DNA of 37,147 nucleotides from a virus, in the IMG/VR virus record IMGVR_UViG_3300046476_000186, positions 1-37,147 of that record; one strand, written 5' to 3'. Under the pieces are notes generated by a model. The model did no database searches, had not been told where the DNA came from, and saw nothing but the letters and a program-made list of their open reading frames with translations. This document shows, one piece after another, positions 3,115 through 15,075 of this stretch (position 1 is the stretch's first letter; each line of letters begins with the position of its first letter). The translations under genes were made by a program, and so were the position numbers.

Positions 3115-3185
3115 CGGCAGTCGTGTGGAGCGTGACCATCATCCTGTTCGTGGCGGTGGTCACGCTCCTCTGGACCCGGTCCTGA
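3111..3185 (+). CDS. 24-residue membrane peptide
   Basis: A GTG at 3111 overlaps the stop of the LPXTG gene (GTGA), the usual coupling arrangement in this genome. The 24-residue product MTAVVWSVTIILFVAVVTLL plus WTRS is a single membrane helix with a basic end. A very strong terminator hairpin follows at once. It could be a small membrane partner of the surface protein or a holin-like peptide; the sequence does not decide. Confidence 0.5.
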   Translation: MTAVVWSVTIILFVAVVTLLWTRS

Positions 3186-3208
3186 CCCCCCTGGACCGGT
3201 GGCTTGAA

Positions 3209-3245
3209 GGACCGGGCCGCGACCCCCTAACGCGGCCCGGTCCTC
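3209..3245 (+). terminator. Strong terminator-like hairpin
   Basis: A perfect 14-bp inverted repeat (arms 3209-3222 and 3232-3245) with a 9-nt loop. It closes the envelope module just before the erf-like promoter. There is no U-tract, as is common in high-GC actinobacterial systems. Confidence 0.75.
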
Positions 3246-3257
3246 GCCGTAGTAACC

Positions 3258-3271
3258 TAACTAGCCTTAGC
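3258..3271 (+). promoter_or_regulatory. Operator-like dyad upstream of the erf-like gene
   Basis: CTAACTAGCCTTAG matches CTAA-N6-TTAG, the motif repeated across the window. A TAnnnT (TAGCCT, 3264-3269) lies inside it and would start transcription near 3276, leaving AAGGAGG as ribosome site for the ATG at 3289. No good -35 is visible. Confidence 0.45.
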
Positions 3272-3288
3272 CCAAGGAGGCACCGCAC

Positions 3289-4122
3289 ATGACCAACGCA
3301 ACAGGGGGAAACCCACCGCCGGAGGTCCCGCCCACGCTCGCCGCTTCCCTCGTCGGCGCGCTGGCGGAGATCCAGAACATCGGCCGGGATCGGGAGGTCA
3401 CGATTCAGGGGAAGGACGGGAAGCCGGGGTACACGATCAAGTACGCCGACCTCGCCACGGTCATCGATCACGTCAAGCCGACCCTCGCGAAGTGGGGTCT
3501 GGCGATGATCCAGGAGGTAGGCGGAGACGGGAAGACGATCTCCGTCACAACGACCCTGATCCACGTCTCCGGGGAGGAGCGCTCCTCTCCCGCTCTACAG
3601 ATGCCAGCCGGGAGCAACCCGCAGGCGACCGGGAGCGCGATCACGTACGCCCGCCGGTATCAGACGATGGCCGCGCTCGGGATCGCGCCGGACGACGACG
3701 ACGGGCAGGCCGCGGCCGCGTCTCCGTTCCGGGAGGAGGATCTTTCCCCGCCGCTGTTCTCCCCGGCGATGGCCGACGGCTACCTGCAACTGGCCCGGAA
3801 GCGCGGCCTGACGGACGCTGAGATCGAGCGCATCGTGCTCTACGTGTCCGACGGTCGCGCCACGGAGGTCCGCTACCTGTACCGGCCGGAGGAGGAGGCG
3901 CTCACCGCCGCCACCCGGGAAGCGCTCACCGCGAAGAACGCCACGACGCCCGGAGAAGCCTCTACAACGCCCGGAGAGCCGTCAGAAGGGTCCGCGGCTA
4001 CGGATACACCTCCGACGCCCGGTGAGAGCGCCTGGGAGCGTGAGGACCGGCAAGCGAAACAGGCTGAGCTTGACGCCAAGGTCGCGAAGGCGAAGGAAGC
4101 CCACGCCCCGAAGGCTCGCTAG
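3289..4122 (+). CDS. Erf-family single-strand annealing recombinase
   Basis: A 277-residue protein. Its N-terminal half (about residues 15-145) shows the ERF-family pattern: LAEIQNIGRDREV, YADLATVIDHVKPTLAKWGL, a beta-rich core, and the signature GSAITYARRYQTMAALGI followed by the acidic APDDDDG. Erf proteins form rings that bind single-stranded DNA and anneal complementary strands in phage recombination and genome circularisation. The C-terminal part is acidic and disordered, with repeated TPGE motifs, and ends in a charged helix. Together with the Gam-like protein it forms a typical annealing-recombination pair. The start follows a strong AAGGAGG. Confidence 0.85.
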   Translation: MTNATGGNPPPEVPPTLAASLVGALAEIQNIGRDREVTIQGKDGKPGYTIKYADLATVIDHVKPTLAKWGLAMIQEVGGDGKTISVTTTLIHVSGEERSSPALQMPAGSNPQATGSAITYARRYQTMAALGIAPDDDDGQAAAASPFREEDLSPPLFSPAMADGYLQLARKRGLTDAEIERIVLYVSDGRATEVRYLYRPEEEALTAATREALTAKNATTPGEASTTPGEPSEGSAATDTPPTPGESAWEREDRQAKQAELDAKVAKAKEAHAPKAR

Positions 4123-7778: not shown

Positions 7779-7807
7779 TGGACAGTTAAGGGCGGTTAGG
7801 TTAGAGT
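7779..7807 (+). promoter_or_regulatory. Spacer-operator promoter, leaderless
   Basis: -35 TGGACA (7779-7784), 17-bp spacer holding TTAAGGGCGGTTAG (7786-7799, a dyad variant), -10 TAGAGT (7802-7807). The ATG at 7814 follows after 6 nt, so the mRNA should begin at the start codon. Confidence 0.8.
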
Positions 7808-8295: not shown

Positions 8296-9974
8296 CCGTC
8301 ATCGCCCTTCGGGACTACCAGGAGGAGACGCTCAGCGCGATCCTCGCGGCGGAGGAGCGCGGCGTCCGACGGCAGGCGGTCTCCGCCGCGACCGGGCTCG
8401 GCAAGACGGTGATCTTCTGCGCCCTGGCGGCGCGGCGCGGCGGCCGGACCCTGATCCTCGCCCATCGTGACGAGCTGGTCTCCCAGGCGGTCGAGAAGAT
8501 GTTGCAGGTCTGGCCGGACTGCCCGGTCGGGGTAGTGAAGGCAGAACGGAACGAGACGGCCGCACAAGTCGTTGTGGCGTCCGTTCAGACGCTCTCGCGC
8601 TCCTCACGCCTCCGGCAGCTTCTCGACGCTCCTACAGCCCTACAGGGCTTCGGGCAGGAAGCCGGGTTCGATCTCGTGGTCGTGGACGAATGCCACCACT
8701 CGACGGCCGACTCGTACGTGAAGGTGATCGACGGGCTTGACGCGGGGAAGCCGGACGGACCGCTCCTCCTCGGCGTCACCGCGACACTCGACCGGGGAGA
8801 CGGGAAAGGGCTCGACGGGATCTTCGATGAGGTCGTCGCGGACTGGCCGATCCTCTGGGGAATCCAGCACGGCTACCTCTGTGACCTCACCGGCCGCCGC
8901 ATCCTCATCGAGGATCTCGACCTCTCCAAGGTGAAGGTGACCGCCGGGGACTACAACGTCGGCCATTCCGGCGCCGCTCTCCTCGAAGCCGGAGCGCCTC
9001 AGGCGATCGCCGCGACTCTCGTGGAGCACGCCGCCGACCGCTCGCGCTCCCTCGTGTTCACGCCGACCGTGGCCGTGGCCGTCCAGACCGCGGAGTGGTG
9101 CCAGACGTACGGGCTCCGCGCCGAGTGGGTGTCCGGGGAGACGCCGCTCGATGAGCGCCGCGCGATCCTCCGCCGCTTCGAGTCGGGAGAGACGAACGTC
9201 CTCGCCAACTGCGCCGTCCTCACGGAAGGGTACGACTGCCCAGGCGTCGACTGTGTGGTGGTCGCCCGGCCTACGAAGTCCCGGAGTCTCTACACGCAGA
9301 TGATCGGCCGGGGAACGCGCCGCTACCCGGAGAAGGCCAACTGCCTCATCCTGGACGTCGTCGGCGCCTCGGACCTCCACTCCCTCGTCCGCCTCCCCAC
9401 CCTCTTCGGGTTGGAGAAGCCGCTCGAATGGGAAGCGAAGGGCGAAGGGATCGCCGCCGGGCTGATGGAGCAGGCGGAGGAGAACGCCCGCCTCGGGCGG
9501 ATCACCGCTGAGGAAGCGGACCTGTTCCGGGTCGTTCAGGCGAACGGGACAACCTGGGTCTCCGTTCACGAGCCCGGAGCGCTCCGGAAGCGTTACGTCC
9601 GGCCGCTCCGCTCAATGGACCCGGCCGTCGTCCTCGCCCAGTTGGACGACGGGACGTGGGGAGCCGGGCTCCGCCTCCCCCGGGTAGACGAGACGGGGCG
9701 CGGCCACTACGGCGAAGCCGGATGGCGGACCCTGATCCGTGGCGTCAACCAGGAGACCGCCCAGGGCGTCGCGGAGGAATGGCTGCGGACGCAGACGTCC
9801 GGGTTCCTCGCGGACCGGGAAGCGAACTGGCGGAAGACACCGATCTCGGAGGGACAGCGGAAGCTCGCCGCCAAGCTCCGCATCCCGATCGAGCGCAAAT
9901 GGAAGTCCGGGGACGTCTCCGACGCGATCGACGCCCGGCTCGCCGTGAAGCACGAGCGCGCCGCCAACCGCTGA
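8292..9974 (+). CDS. SF2 DEAD/DEAH-box helicase
   Basis: A 560-residue superfamily 2 helicase with the motifs in order: a Q-like region (RDYQEETLSAI, 7-17), motif I ATGLGKT (33-39), Ia LAHRDEL, II DECH (132-135), III TAT (163-165), V region TEGYDCPG and VI QMIGRGTR (336-343). The arrangement resembles the RadD/SSL2-like group of phage and bacterial ATP-dependent DNA helicases. The C-terminal 170 residues are specific to this protein and may bind DNA or a partner. Likely roles are branch migration, fork remodelling or origin opening alongside the RusA-like and Erf-like proteins. Confidence 0.88.
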   Translation: MTVIALRDYQEETLSAILAAEERGVRRQAVSAATGLGKTVIFCALAARRGGRTLILAHRDELVSQAVEKMLQVWPDCPVGVVKAERNETAAQVVVASVQTLSRSSRLRQLLDAPTALQGFGQEAGFDLVVVDECHHSTADSYVKVIDGLDAGKPDGPLLLGVTATLDRGDGKGLDGIFDEVVADWPILWGIQHGYLCDLTGRRILIEDLDLSKVKVTAGDYNVGHSGAALLEAGAPQAIAATLVEHAADRSRSLVFTPTVAVAVQTAEWCQTYGLRAEWVSGETPLDERRAILRRFESGETNVLANCAVLTEGYDCPGVDCVVVARPTKSRSLYTQMIGRGTRRYPEKANCLILDVVGASDLHSLVRLPTLFGLEKPLEWEAKGEGIAAGLMEQAEENARLGRITAEEADLFRVVQANGTTWVSVHEPGALRKRYVRPLRSMDPAVVLAQLDDGTWGAGLRLPRVDETGRGHYGEAGWRTLIRGVNQETAQGVAEEWLRTQTSGFLADREANWRKTPISEGQRKLAAKLRIPIERKWKSGDVSDAIDARLAVKHERAANR

Positions 9975-9975
9975 C

Positions 9976-9981
9976 TACCGT
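9976..9981 (+). promoter_or_regulatory. -10 box for leaderless parB-like gene
   Basis: TACCGT fits TAnnnT and lies 7 nt before the ATG at 9989, just after the helicase stop. No convincing -35 or dyad is visible, so this would belong to the core-only promoter class. Confidence 0.4.
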
Positions 9982-9988
9982 CGCGACC

Positions 9989-10675
9989 ATGCCGGACACC
10001 GCACAGCTAGATCATCGTCGGGTCGCGCTTTCCGCTCTCCGCCCGCATCCCCGGAACTATCAGGCGCACCCGCCGGACCAGATCGCCCACATCAAGCAGT
10101 CCCTCATCGACTTCGGGCAGTACCGGGCGATCGTGGTGGCGCGGGACCTCACCATCCTCGCGGGGCACGGAGTAGTCGAAGCGGAGATCGAGCTGGGCTG
10201 GGACGTCACTGACGTCGTCGTGATCGACCTCGACCCGGACTCCCCGCTAGCGCTCCGCCTCCTCGCCGGAGACAACGAGATCAGCAACCTGGCCGACGTC
10301 AACGACCGGGCTCTCACGGAGCTTCTGCGCGAGGTCGCCGGAGATCCGCTCGCCGGTCTCCTCGGCTCCGGGTTCGATGAGCTTCAACTCGCCGCGCTGG
10401 CGATGACGTCCCGCCCGCAGTCGGAGCTGCGGGACCTCGCGGCGGCCGGGGAATGGCTCGGCCTGCCTGACTTCACCGCGACGCCGAAGGAACCGATCCT
10501 CGTGATCAAGTTCCTCTCCGTCGAGGATCAGGCCAGGTTCCTCGAAGAGATCCTCCCGGGCCACCACATCGTGAAGAAGGTCGGGGACGCCTGGACGACG
10601 TACTGGCCGAACCGCCGCATGAACGACCTCGCCGCGGTCAAGTTCGAGCCGGAGCCGTCCGATGCCGCGAGCTGA
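9989..10675 (+). CDS. ParB-like domain protein
   Basis: A 228-residue protein whose first 110 residues show the ParB/sulfiredoxin-fold pattern: LRPHPRNYQAHPPDQIAHIKQS, FGQYRAIVVARDLTILAGHG, then LGWDVTDVVVIDLD. The GHG replaces the usual GER/GHR box II. Phage ParB-fold proteins act as DNA-binding NTPases, nucleases or DNA-modification accessories rather than chromosome partitioners. The C-terminus (from about 155) is a separate small alpha/beta domain. It overlaps a TAGT-type glycosyltransferase, a pairing described in phage DNA-hypermodification clusters. No ParA is present, which argues against plasmid partition. Confidence 0.78.
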   Translation: MPDTAQLDHRRVALSALRPHPRNYQAHPPDQIAHIKQSLIDFGQYRAIVVARDLTILAGHGVVEAEIELGWDVTDVVVIDLDPDSPLALRLLAGDNEISNLADVNDRALTELLREVAGDPLAGLLGSGFDELQLAALAMTSRPQSELRDLAAAGEWLGLPDFTATPKEPILVIKFLSVEDQARFLEEILPGHHIVKKVGDAWTTYWPNRRMNDLAAVKFEPEPSDAAS

Positions 10676-11561
10676 GCGGACCCTTCCCCGCTACCCGGTC
10701 TTCGTCCCCTCGAAGGGACGGTGGCAGAACCCGATGACTGCCAAGTTCCTGACCAAGGATGGGGTCCCGTTCCGCCTCGTGGTCGAACCGGCGGAGGAGG
10801 CTGCCTACCGGGCCGCGCTCCCCGACGTCGAGATGCTCGTCACGCCCCACGACGACATGAAGCTCCTCGGGGTCCGCAACTGGATCCGGGACGTCTCGAT
10901 CGAGGAAGGCTGGTCCCGGCACTGGCAGTTGGACGACAACATCCAGGACACGCGGCGCCTCTACCGGGGAAAGCGAATCCCCTGCAACTCCGGGGTAGCG
11001 CTCCGGGTCTGTGAGGACTTCACCGACCGGTACACGAACATCGGCGTCTCCGGCCTGAACTACCAGATGTTCGTGACCGACGAGACCCCCACGCCGTTCT
11101 ACCTCAACTGCCACGTCTACTCCTGCTCCCTCGTCTCGAACGAGATGCCGTACCGGTGGCGCCTCATCTACAACGACGACACGGACCTCTGCCTCCAAGT
11201 CCTCGCCGGAGGTCTCTGCACCGTCGCGCTCAACGTGTTCATGGCCCACAAGCAGCGGACGATGGTTCACGCCGGAGGGAACACGACGTCGATCTACACC
11301 GGAGACGGACGCGCCGTAATGGCCCGCTCCCTCGAAAGGGTCTGGCCGTTCGTCGTCACGACGAAACGCCGCTTCCGCCGACCCCAACACGTCATCCGGG
11401 GAGCGTGGGCCGGGTTCGACACGCCCCTGATCCGCCGGACGGATATCGACTGGGACAACCTCCCGCCGATCGATGAGTACGGGCTCGATCTCATCCAGGT
11501 CGCGGAGGAGATCCGCTCCCCGGTGATCAAGAGCATCCTCGAAGATTGGAGAAGCCGGTGA
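10662..11561 (+). CDS. TET-associated-type glycosyltransferase (TAGT), DNA-base modification candidate
   Basis: A 299-residue GT-A-like glycosyltransferase. Seen in order: FVPSKGR (14-20), a strand with LVVEPAEE, the nucleotide-sugar/metal motif HWQLDDNI (88-94), VSGLNYQMF, LNCHVYSCSL, YRWRLIYNDDTDLCLQ (164-179) and a glycine-rich HAGGNTTSIY. This matches the TAGT family, whose members add sugars to hydroxylated bases in phage DNA, typically with TET/JBP oxygenases. It starts 14 bp inside the ParB-like gene and overlaps the methyltransferase after it. No oxygenase or base hydroxymethylase is in the window, so the base and the earlier step are unknown. A protein or surface-glycan substrate is less likely but possible. 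Confidence 0.75.
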   Translation: MPRAERTLPRYPVFVPSKGRWQNPMTAKFLTKDGVPFRLVVEPAEEAAYRAALPDVEMLVTPHDDMKLLGVRNWIRDVSIEEGWSRHWQLDDNIQDTRRLYRGKRIPCNSGVALRVCEDFTDRYTNIGVSGLNYQMFVTDETPTPFYLNCHVYSCSLVSNEMPYRWRLIYNDDTDLCLQVLAGGLCTVALNVFMAHKQRTMVHAGGNTTSIYTGDGRAVMARSLERVWPFVVTTKRRFRRPQHVIRGAWAGFDTPLIRRTDIDWDNLPPIDEYGLDLIQVAEEIRSPVIKSILEDWRSR

Positions 11562-12340
11562 CGCCGCTCTCCCTGACCGGCCGGGCCGCCCTGATCGACT
11601 TCGCCAACCGGCTCCTCGCGCTCGACGTCCCCCACGCCGACGTCGCCCACGTCGCGCAGATAGCGGACCAGACGATCCGCCACCTGACCGGGAAGGCGCG
11701 CGAACAGACCGGAGCCCTACAGGCGCTTGAACGGGAGTGGTACGCCTCGCTCGCCGCCGGGAAACCCGCGTTCGACGTGTACGAGCGGACGGAGTACCTC
11801 GGGGATCTCTGGGCGTGCTGGGCGCTCTACTCCCGCAAGTACGTCAACAACCTCGCCGGGCTCCCCGGTATCCGGGTCGGCGTGAACGTCGTCGCTGACG
11901 TCGGCTGCGGTCTCGGCTACTCCACCGCCGCGCTCCGGGCTGCGTTCCCCGGCGCGACCGTCTTCGGGACGAACCTCCCCGGGACGATCCAGACCGCCTT
12001 CGCTGAGCGTCTCGGCGTCGAACTCGGCTTCGACGTCGTCCCCGCCCTAGACCGCCCGGTGGATCTCCTCTTCGCCTCCGAATACTTCGAGCACTTCCAG
12101 GAGCCGGTCGCTCATCTCCGGGACCTCCTCCGGGCGGAGCCGTCCGTGGTCGTGACCGCCTCGACGTTCAACGCCGCGTCGATCGGCCACTTCCCCGCCT
12201 ACCTGATCGACGGGGAGACGCTCGACGGCCCGGCCACGTCCCGCCGCTTCAACAACGAGCTGCGCTCCTCCGGCTACGCCAAGATCGAAACCGGATTCTG
12301 GAACAACCGTCCGGCCGTCTGGCGCCAAACAAATGCCTGA
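11558..12340 (+). CDS. Class I SAM-dependent methyltransferase
   Basis: I chose the GTG at 11558: GGAG lies 6 nt upstream and it forms a GTGA overlap with the glycosyltransferase stop (a TTG at 11546 would add four residues). The 260-residue product has a helical N-terminal domain of about 100 residues. A Rossmann methyltransferase core follows: motif I VVADVGCGLGYSTA, motif II VFGTNLPG and motif IV-like LLFASEYFEHFQEP. There is no DPPY or PC motif, so it is not a standard DNA base methyltransferase. O- or N-methylation of a small molecule, a sugar or a modified base is more likely. Its coupling to the TAGT gene suggests it finishes the same modification. Confidence 0.78.
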   Translation: MTPLSLTGRAALIDFANRLLALDVPHADVAHVAQIADQTIRHLTGKAREQTGALQALEREWYASLAAGKPAFDVYERTEYLGDLWACWALYSRKYVNNLAGLPGIRVGVNVVADVGCGLGYSTAALRAAFPGATVFGTNLPGTIQTAFAERLGVELGFDVVPALDRPVDLLFASEYFEHFQEPVAHLRDLLRAEPSVVVTASTFNAASIGHFPAYLIDGETLDGPATSRRFNNELRSSGYAKIETGFWNNRPAVWRQTNA

Positions 12341-12359
12341 ATACCCTGGTAGTTGCACC

Positions 12360-12388
12360 TGGACAGGTAACGGCGGTTAGGTTAAGCT
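12360..12388 (+). promoter_or_regulatory. Spacer-operator promoter driving the candidate structured RNA
   Basis: -35 TGGACA (12360-12365), 17-bp spacer with GTAACGGCGGTTAG (12367-12380), -10 TAAGCT (12383-12388). It has the same architecture as the leaderless-gene promoters, but 6 nt downstream (12395) there is no start codon. The first paired strand of a helix begins there instead. Confidence 0.78.
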
Positions 12389-12394
12389 GTTCAC

Positions 12395-12835
12395 GTAGGA
12401 CGGGAACGAGGACCGTAGGGTCAAGCTCCCCACCGGGCTAGCGCCGCCGGACTCCCGCCCTACACCGGTCCCTCCAAAGGACGGTGTCACCGCCAGCGTG
12501 GTCGACGGCTCTAGTAGTCCTCGGCGGGGTGTTGGGAAGCGGAGCGCCTAGTGCGGAGGGACCACCGACGGCCGGTAGCCGTTCGGAGGCTTCGGCGCTC
12601 CGGTCCCCGCTAGACGGGGACGCGCAGGACCGGTAGGCCAGGTGAAGGGCTGAGGGTGGGACGCTATGAGCGGTCCTCTCAGCCGCCTACCGGGCAGTCC
12701 CTTCGGGGAGACGGACGCAACCGCATTTGGCTGAAGGCACCGCCCATCGGGGGAACGTTCCCCCGGGCTCCGCTGATAGGCACAACCGGACGCCCATCCG
12801 TCTCCCCGGAGAACATCCCAGGTGAAAGCACCTGG
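12395..12835 (+). ncRNA. Candidate large structured non-coding RNA (about 440 nt), no family recognised
   Basis: This gene-free stretch has its own promoter and no convincing reading frame. It is full of inverted repeats. GTAGGACGGGA (12395-12405, the predicted 5' end) pairs with TCCCGCCCTAC (12453-12463) with one mismatch. CACC/GTCC (12463-12471) pairs with GGAC/GGTG (12479-12486). CGGAGCGCC (12540-12548) pairs with GGCGCTCCG (12594-12602). GTCCCCG-CTAGA-CGGGGAC lies at 12603-12621. CCGGTAGGC (12630-12638) pairs with GCCTACCGG (12685-12693), enclosing GGCTGAG/CTCAGCC and a GGACGCT/AGCGGTCC hairpin. GGGGAGACGGA (12705-12715) pairs with TCCGTCTCCCC (12797-12807). An 18-bp palindrome lies at 12748-12765. 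CCAGGTG-AAAG-CACCTGG (12818-12835) probably ends it. It lacks a tRNA T-loop, a tmRNA tag frame or RNase P signatures. Size and promoter recall ornate phage RNAs such as GOLLD or ROOL, but I see no sequence match. Confidence 0.65.
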
Positions 12836-12861
12836 ACAGCTAACCTGACTTAGGTTAGAGT
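12833..12861 (+). promoter_or_regulatory. Spacer-operator promoter for the gene at 12899
   Basis: -35 TGGACA (12833-12838), spacer with CTAACCTGACTTAG (12840-12853), -10 TAGAGT (12856-12861). Transcription would start near 12868 and give a short leader with TAGGAGGGA before the ATG. The -35 overlaps the last hairpin of the candidate RNA, so ending one transcript and starting the next share sequence. Confidence 0.78.
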
Positions 12862-12898
12862 GATCTCACCGAACCACGATCCCCTAGGAGGGAACGAC

Positions 12899-13672
12899 AT
12901 GACCGAGACTAAGCAAGCACGCACGCCGGAGCAGAAGGCAGCCCACGCCGCTAAGGAGCGGGAGCGCCGCGCAGCCCGGAAGGCCGCCGAAGGGCGCGCC
13001 GACGAGATCCAGGCCGAGCGGACCGCCGCCGATGACTTCATCGACGCCGCCATCGCCGCTCACCCGTCCGGCGCCACGTTCACGGAGCAGGCGCAGGAGA
13101 TCATCGAGGACCCGGAAGCCGACCGGCTCGCCGCCGCGATCATCGACGGGACGGTCTCCTTCGAGGACGCCGCTACGGCGCTCCTCTCCGGCGCCTCCTT
13201 CTCCCAGGTCAACGCGAACCTGGCCGAGATGGACTCCATCACGCTCTACCGGAACGTCAAGGACGAGCTGACCGCCAAGAAGGTCACCCCGGACCTCCCC
13301 ACGCCCCACCTGGACGAGCTGAACGCCCGGAAGGGTCGGAAGGTTCTCTGGCCCCCGGCGAAGGCCACGGCGGACCGTCCCGCCCGTACGGAGCGGAAGC
13401 GTCCGGCCGCCCACCCGCTCTTCGAGCAGGCGACCGCCGCTCGGAAGGCCGCCAACAACAAGCGCGGGAAGGCCGCCGTCAAGCTCACCGCTGAGGAGCT
13501 GACCGCTCTCGCGGTCCGCTACGCCGCCGAAGGGCTCACGGAGAACCAGGGGCTGAACGTGGCCTACTGGGTCGAGCTGGCCGCGGTCTCTTCCGGCTCC
13601 TGGTCGAAGGCGTGGGAACTAGCCACGTCGGCTGGTGGCCCGTACGCCGCTGAGGAAGGAGGCGCCGTCTGA
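12899..13672 (+). CDS. Unrecognised 257-residue Ala/Lys-rich protein
   Basis: Begins after a strong TAGGAGGGA site. The N-terminal 60 residues are a highly charged helix (EQKAAHAAKERERRAARKAA), then a helical acidic domain (about 60-140), a basic Pro-rich linker and a C-terminal helical domain (about 190-257). The charge pattern would suit a nucleic-acid-binding or scaffolding protein. It has its own regulated promoter and a strong terminator, so it is a single-gene unit directly after the candidate RNA and could be its protein partner. That link is inference only. Confidence 0.65.
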   Translation: MTETKQARTPEQKAAHAAKERERRAARKAAEGRADEIQAERTAADDFIDAAIAAHPSGATFTEQAQEIIEDPEADRLAAAIIDGTVSFEDAATALLSGASFSQVNANLAEMDSITLYRNVKDELTAKKVTPDLPTPHLDELNARKGRKVLWPPAKATADRPARTERKRPAAHPLFEQATAARKAANNKRGKAAVKLTAEELTALAVRYAAEGLTENQGLNVAYWVELAAVSSGSWSKAWELATSAGGPYAAEEGGAV

Positions 13673-13696: not shown

Positions 13697-13732
13697 GGAA
13701 GCGCCGTCTCTCCACAGGGGGACGGCGCTTCC
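13697..13732 (+). terminator. Terminator-like hairpin
   Basis: Perfect 12-bp arms GGAAGCGCCGTC (13697-13708) and GACGGCGCTTCC (13721-13732), 12-nt loop, no U-tract. It closes the unit that starts at the promoter 12833-12861. Confidence 0.7.
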
Positions 13733-13775: not shown

Positions 13776-13804
13776 TAGACGCCTAAGGGCGGTTAGGTTA
13801 GACT
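13776..13804 (+). promoter_or_regulatory. Spacer-operator promoter for the DUF932-like gene
   Basis: -35 TAGACG (13776-13781), spacer with CTAAGGGCGGTTAG (13783-13796), -10 TAGACT (13799-13804). A leader of about 45 nt with GAAGGGA precedes the ATG at 13856. Confidence 0.7.
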
Positions 13805-13855: not shown

Positions 13856-14992
13856 ATGTCTGACTTGCTCACTCCTCTCCGCCACTGTTCTGACCGCCTG
13901 CAATGGGTCGGCCGTCTCCGGGACATCTCCGAGGCGATGGTCGATGTGGTCGCCCCGCAGTTCGCGCTCTCCGCCGACGGGATGGAAGGGGAAGGCGTCG
14001 AGTGGATGCTCCTCCCCGACTTCCCGGCTCTTTCCCTGACCGCTGGCGCCCACCGCGACGTCGCCGGACGCCTGGACGTCCCGTCGAAATACTGGTTCCG
14101 GATCGTGGAGCAGTTCCCGTTCCTAGCGGCCCAGACCCACAACACGCTCGCCGCCGCCAGCCAGGCCACGGCGCTCTACCGGCTCCTGAAGGACGGGGAC
14201 GGCTACGTCCTCCGGGCGCAGCTCTCCGACCGGTACGGAGTGTTCGACAACTTCTCCGTCCTCCAAGCGGTCGGGGAAGGGCTCACCACGGCCGGGCACT
14301 CCCTAGAGGACGCCAAGATCGACGTGGATCTCACCTCAGACCGCTTCCGGATGCGGATCGTCCTCCCGTCCGTCGAGGCGCTCGCGCCGGATCTCCTCGC
14401 CGGGTACCGGTCCCCGTTCTCGATGCGCGACGGGGACGCTCCGCACACTCCGGGCTCATCCGTCCCGCCGGTCGTGTGGGCCGGAGTAGAGATCGGCAAC
14501 TCGGAGACCGGTGGCGGAGCGTTCTACATCGTTCCCCGGGCCGAGTTCCTCATCTGCACGAACGGGCTGACCCGTACGGAGGACGCCATCCGGCAGGTTC
14601 ACCTCGGGAGCCGCCTGGCTGAGGGAGCGGTCGACTGGTCGGAGAAGTCCCGGCGCCTCTCGATCGAGCTGCTCGCCTCGAAGGTCTCCGACGCGGTCGC
14701 CCAGTTCGCGTCCGTCGAGTACCTGGAACGGATGCTGGCCGACGCCCGCGCCGCCAAGAAGGTCAACGCCGACGTCGAGACCCTGACCCGGGTCTCCGCC
14801 GCTCACCAGTTGACGGAGACGGAGACGAAGTCGGTGATGGACATGTTCCTCCGGGGAGCCGACCCGACCCTGTTCGGCGTCGCGCAGGCGGTCACGGCGG
14901 CCGCTCAGGTGGTCGAGGACTCGGACCGGCAGGCGGAGATGGAATCGATGTTCTTCGCCATCGTGAACGGGCCGGAGCTGCGCCGCATCTAG
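13856..14992 (+). CDS. DUF932-like phage/plasmid protein
   Basis: A 378-residue protein with the pattern of the DUF932 family, found on many phages and plasmids. It has a helical N-terminus (SKYWFRIVEQFPFLAAQTHN), then LRAQLSDRYGVFDNFSVLQA, a beta-rich core (IDVDLTSDRFRMRIVLPS), then WAGVEIGNSETGGGAFYIVP and CTNGLTRTED. The function of the family is not established; links to replication and anti-restriction have been proposed. A dedicated promoter and a following terminator make it monocistronic, which suggests strong, separately timed expression. Confidence 0.7.
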   Translation: MSDLLTPLRHCSDRLQWVGRLRDISEAMVDVVAPQFALSADGMEGEGVEWMLLPDFPALSLTAGAHRDVAGRLDVPSKYWFRIVEQFPFLAAQTHNTLAAASQATALYRLLKDGDGYVLRAQLSDRYGVFDNFSVLQAVGEGLTTAGHSLEDAKIDVDLTSDRFRMRIVLPSVEALAPDLLAGYRSPFSMRDGDAPHTPGSSVPPVVWAGVEIGNSETGGGAFYIVPRAEFLICTNGLTRTEDAIRQVHLGSRLAEGAVDWSEKSRRLSIELLASKVSDAVAQFASVEYLERMLADARAAKKVNADVETLTRVSAAHQLTETETKSVMDMFLRGADPTLFGVAQAVTAAAQVVEDSDRQAEMESMFFAIVNGPELRRI

Positions 14993-15042: not shown

Positions 15043-15075
15043 GGTCCGGCCCGGGGTGATCCTCCGGGCCGGACC
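15043..15075 (+). terminator. Terminator-like hairpin
   Basis: Perfect 12-bp arms GGTCCGGCCCGG (15043-15054) and CCGGGCCGGACC (15064-15075) with a 9-nt loop, in the gap after the DUF932-like gene. Confidence 0.7.

Follow-up and report, generated by a model that had tools for sequence, protein, structure and literature searches.

A candidate orphan noncoding RNA with a folded 3' domain behind its own promoter in a likely actinobacterial phage

Some of the most elaborate known RNAs come from phages. ROOL forms a homo-octameric nanocage, and the roles of ROOL and GOLLD are still open. Both are large noncoding RNAs of phages and prophages with unknown function, and both are often found near tRNA islands (PMC12286853). 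Many GOLLD members are longer than 800 nt, and their 3' region is conserved and structured, while the 5' region is less conserved (PMC12286853). Furthermore, noncoding RNAs of phage PhiKZ have been detected by Grad-seq, and such experimental findings show that this kind of RNA is real (PMC8545117). Here we describe a locus in the IMG/VR virus record IMGVR_UViG_3300046476_000186, which was analyzed over its entire 37,147 bases (referred to as the window). As in PhiKZ, a noncoding transcript of the phage would arise here between genes; however, the first PhiKZ example is about 100 nt long and experimentally established (PMC8545117), whereas the candidate is longer and predicted only. With GOLLD it shares the status of a phage noncoding RNA, and the structured 3' region of GOLLD following a less conserved 5' region (PMC12286853) is reminiscent of its layout; with ROOL it shares being a large phage noncoding RNA of unknown function (PMC12286853). 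In contrast to GOLLD with more than 800 nt, the candidate comprises about 420-440 nt. It also differs from both families, because the Rfam covariance models, including those of GOLLD and ROOL, gave no match at the gathering score or at E<=5 (cmscan, 621-base search), and the window contains no tRNA or tmRNA gene according to ARAGORN, i.e., no tRNA island. The sequence-only reading, which preceded our analysis, had recognised no sequence match either. Judged by these searches, the candidate is neither GOLLD nor ROOL, and the best reading of the locus is an orphan, separately transcribed phage noncoding RNA with a folded 3' domain. With its sharply delimited promoter and unit ends, such an unrelated RNA would lend itself as a compact test case. 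Since the case rests on a single phage, with the region being present in one record, its main value is that of a precise prediction, namely a 5' end at 12395 and a length of about 420-440 nt.

The phage itself is represented by a second record (IMGVR_UViG_3300046689_000588; 26,876 bases), which is 99.98% identical to the window over their overlap. This record begins inside terL (window 18450) and extends approximately 8 kb beyond the window end, hence, the phage genome exceeds the 37,147-base window. Matches to PHROGs in the left part of the window correspond to Mu Gam-like, Erf, replication initiator, DnaC-like loader and RusA proteins. These are followed by a helicase, a ParB-like protein, a TET-associated glycosyltransferase and a weak methyltransferase match, and then by terL, portal, a portal/protease-like protein and the major capsid protein (MCP). 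For phrog_1362, TerL and MCP, the best relatives among phages were mostly from phages of Arthrobacter, Gordonia, Mycobacterium and Microbacterium, hence, an actinobacterial host is likely.

The candidate RNA region is preceded by a sigma70-type promoter, TGGACA-N17-TAAGCT, at 12360-12388 on the plus strand, the spacer of which bears a palindromic putative operator (TAAC...TTAGGTTA). This promoter is an exact member of a family with the hexamers TGGACA-17-TANNNT, in which the palindrome TAACC...GGTTA is often present in the spacer and probably represents an operator because of its palindromic nature. The corresponding pattern GGACAGNTAAN6TTAGGTTANNNTG occurred at seven zero-mismatch sites in the window compared to none in 100 dinucleotide-preserving shuffles of it, which corroborates the previously noticed promoter pointing into the gap. 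Together with two weaker copies (13779 and 19125), this phage-specific family occupies the window positions 7780, 12361, 12834, 13779, 16903, 17167, 19125, 26349 and 30677. Two further family promoters are found in the extension provided by the second record (L039:4216 and 7854), and the family was also detected in a 77% relative (L021, position 1969). Most sibling promoters are leaderless, with the A of the ATG being the 7th base past the -10 element. At the 12360 promoter, the positions 12389-12395 read GTTCAC-G, in which G12395 is the 7th base; because the spacing is the same as in the leaderless siblings, we infer that transcription starts at G12395. According to the sequence-only reading, all sibling promoters carry a start codon at this position. 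This applies to most of them, however, the promoters at 12833 and 13779 are followed by leaders with a Shine-Dalgarno (SD) sequence of about 30 and 50 nt, respectively. The leftmost exact family member, at 7.8 kb, comes after most of the recombination and replication genes when the window is read from the left. Other members drive ORF 12899, phrog_1362 and the terL unit, and a further one serves the unit that immediately precedes the major capsid gene; because the promoter type is shared with these units, the candidate RNA would be expressed with the non-replicative (middle/late) class.

The gap at 12341-12859 comprises 519 nt, and none of its frames has a protein relative or uses codons in the manner of this phage. 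Between 12395 and 12835 the mean codon log-odds ranged from -0.38 to -0.78 and were negative in all six frames; the flanking genes reached +0.53 and +0.58. Two small GTG-started frames of 50 and 65 amino acids exist in the region, which gave no match when compared with 50,697 phages by tblastn. Likewise, the ORFs of related IMG/VR loci did not match any of the six frames of the candidate RNA region (best E 0.12). The earlier description of a gap of more than 500 bp without a credible gene is thus confirmed, and no reading frame with a coding signal or a relative was found running through the region.

The folding energy of the 441-nt RNA (12395-12835) is -230.6 kcal/mol (z -3.65), and none of 100 shuffles was as good; 26 coding windows of equal length showed a mean z of -0.16 and a minimum of -1.69. 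This fold excess is confined to 12630-12816 (z -4.6), within which 12696-12816 reached -5.5 and 12630-12699 reached -3.23. The 5' part is no more structured than shuffles, with z values of +0.24 for 12395-12629 and +0.95 for 12395-12535. Dense structure over 440 nt had been claimed from the sequence; the comparison with shuffles bears this out only in part, since the RNA as a whole exceeds shuffles on account of its 3' part, and the first 235 nt do not. Among 494 plus-strand windows of 150 nt, only 3151-3300 (z -5.0), the top outlier in the window, was more extreme than 12676-12825. The minus strand folds just as stably (-233.0 kcal/mol, z -4.36), hence, the energy does not reveal the RNA strand, and selection may act on the structure at the DNA level, or the structure may be no more than a terminator.

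Regarding individual helices, the 5' part (12395-12629) remained ambiguous, because competing ensemble folds shift with the chosen ends. The proposed 5' closing arm 12395-12405/12453-12463 has an ensemble probability of 0 and contains an A-C mismatch, hence, it is not supported; the helix 12540/12602 reached a probability of 0.62. The 7-bp hairpin at 12603-12621 (GUCCCCG-CUAGA-CGGGGAC; pair probability about 1.0) was clearly recovered, its helix 12603/12621 having an ensemble probability of 1.0. It is followed by a 70-nt element (12630-12699), for which either the stem 12648-12656/12676-12684 (probability 0.55) or the pairing 12630-12638/12685-12693 can be drawn; the latter, i.e., the helix 12630/12693 of the sequence-only reading, is disfavoured with a probability of 0.02. 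A hairpin arm of 111 nt is located at the 3' side (12701-12811). It is closed by a 15-bp base stem (12701-12715/12797-12811, probability 0.99) and includes internal loops and the apical helix GGGGGAAC/GUUCCCCC; the previously named helix 12705/12807 again reached a probability of 1.0. All six named helices together yield -221.3 compared to -230.6 kcal/mol, a cost of 9.3 kcal/mol, which makes their joint formation possible but not predicted.

The noncoding transcript would span 12395-12816 on the plus strand (z -3.08), with its 3' end probably lying between about 12811 and 12835. The best argument for regarding the region as a unit of its own is that its order of promoter (12360), body and strong arm (12701-12811), followed by the next promoter (12833), recurs in the next two units. 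In the first of them, the promoter TGGACA-N17-TAGAGT (12833-12861) drives the monocistronic ORF 12899-13672 through an SD leader, after which a 12-bp GC hairpin lacking a U tract follows at 13697-13732 that can serve as a model for unit ends in this phage. The second one consists of the promoter at 13779, ORF 13856-14992 and a 12-bp hairpin at 15043-15075. Perfect GC hairpins of 12-14 bp that lack a U tract are situated after genes at 3208-3244, 13697-13732 and 15043-15075, and they probably represent the terminators of this phage. A canonical terminator was not found for the RNA unit. Close to its presumed end, the 7-bp palindrome CCAGGTG-AAAG-CACCTGG (12818-12835) had been counted among the helices of the RNA. 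It does form with a probability of 0.98; however, its sequence CCAGGTGAAAGCACCTGGACAG aligns with the counterpart CCTGGTAGTTGCACCTGGACAG at the 12360 promoter (41-nt repeat, 73%), hence, it belongs to the next promoter as upstream element rather than to the RNA fold, and might act as a secondary terminator. The 257-aa product of ORF 12899-13672 had no relatives in the searches, including the IMG/VR scan; its structural model is mostly helical with a basic N-terminal helix, although of low confidence (pLDDT 49.5), and gave no information on whether this protein might be a partner of the RNA.

We favour, with a probability of about one half, a separately transcribed noncoding RNA whose folded 3' domain provides stability and binds a partner. 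According to this model, one short noncoding transcript would be made from 12395 to about 12815-12835, the last 190 nt of which would fold into a stable domain that ends in the 111-nt hairpin arm. The arm would shield the 3' end and may also stop transcription, similar to the U-less GC hairpins behind the neighbouring genes. The stable RNA, with a less structured 5' part, would then act in trans, its 3' domain hypothetically binding a phage or host protein or ribonucleoprotein. Base-pairing with phage mRNA is not indicated, because the best duplex in a genome-wide scan was no better on the plus strand (-61.9) than on the control strand (-63.0). An antisense interaction with the start region of ORF 16201 was considered in view of its z of -4.66 against shuffled RNA, and was rejected because of this genome-wide result for the control strand. 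It is doubtful whether the RNA stands for an undescribed class of large structured RNAs of soil actinophages that is made with the middle/late genes and contributes to phage production as an assembly, either with protein or of RNA only. The only hint towards the formerly suggested packaging or scaffold role is the promoter type common to the terL and pre-capsid units.

Several alternatives have to be weighed against a trans-acting RNA. The equal foldability of both strands and the perfect U-less hairpins in other gaps would also fit a DNA-level element or a plain boundary, where hairpins serve termination, replication or packaging and the promoter fires into a spacer without any functional RNA. 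We regard this as unlikely, because a dedicated exact promoter points into the gap, the 519 nt far exceed the needs of a terminator, tandem repeats or iterons are absent, and the packaging genes begin more than 4 kb away from the candidate RNA region. It is slightly less probable still that the region acts in cis as a leader or attenuator, with the 12360 promoter reading into ORF 12899, the 3' arm working as conditional terminator or in translation control, and the 12833 promoter providing a second start. The locus resembles structured 5' leaders with attenuators in that a structured RNA precedes a gene of the same orientation, here by 60-80 nt; moreover, the tandem promoters belong to the same family, and 12882-12896, the SD region of ORF 12899, finds an 80% complementary segment at 12466-12480. 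However, ORF 12899 possesses a complete promoter and SD leader of its own, the RNA pairs with the start region of this ORF no better than shuffled RNA does (z +0.78), and neither a riboswitch nor another known aptamer was matched in Rfam.

It appears quite improbable that a protein gene, decayed or very small, remained behind the promoter. Genes usually follow the promoters of this family, and the two GTG-started frames might be candidates, yet the codon log-odds are below zero throughout, a start codon is lacking at +1, and neither the phage collection nor the ORFs of the related records provided a match. Least probable is a member of GOLLD or ROOL that diverged past recognition: such an origin would agree with the phage location, the absence of coding and the ornate appearance, whereas the negative covariance search even at E<=5 and the absence of tRNA genes from the window speak against it. 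Moreover, the unit is shorter than either class, ROOL also being longer than the approximately 420-nt candidate.

Homologs in related phages, which had been proposed as a check, were not found in the collections searched. Blastn with the RNA revealed no homolog among phages (E<=1e-5 or E<=10), among plasmids or in some 100 related IMG/VR records. Scans of IMG/VR with the downstream ORF, phrog_1362, TerL and MCP did not lead to one either. Low-scoring blastn matches in related records were dismissed as chance, since the inspected ones were short and situated inside long open frames on either strand. Scanning IMG/VR with the promoter pattern retrieved only the same phage and the one 77% relative, a 9.9-kb fragment without the RNA region, and a scan with one 22-nt word of the RNA gave no match. 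A covariance model built from the single sequence of the 3' arm was run on 23 whole records and on related loci totalling 1.29 Mb, where it recovered nothing other than its own source sequence, and the GTDB scan with an MCP profile yielded one distant MAG locus. A lack of homologs is also expected for a sequence without conserved function. The whole-looking genome of another relative (54,943 bases; TerL 42%) showed no RNA counterpart upstream of phrog_1362; the stretch at this place looks coding by eye and contains a tRNA-Gly (CCC) gene (L036:1709-1781). Upstream of the candidate RNA, genes for the ParB-like protein, which also matches a phage DNA methyltransferase family, the TET-associated glycosyltransferase (PF20691) and the weak methyltransferase match adjoin each other at window 9656-12340, and they probably form a DNA base hypermodification module.
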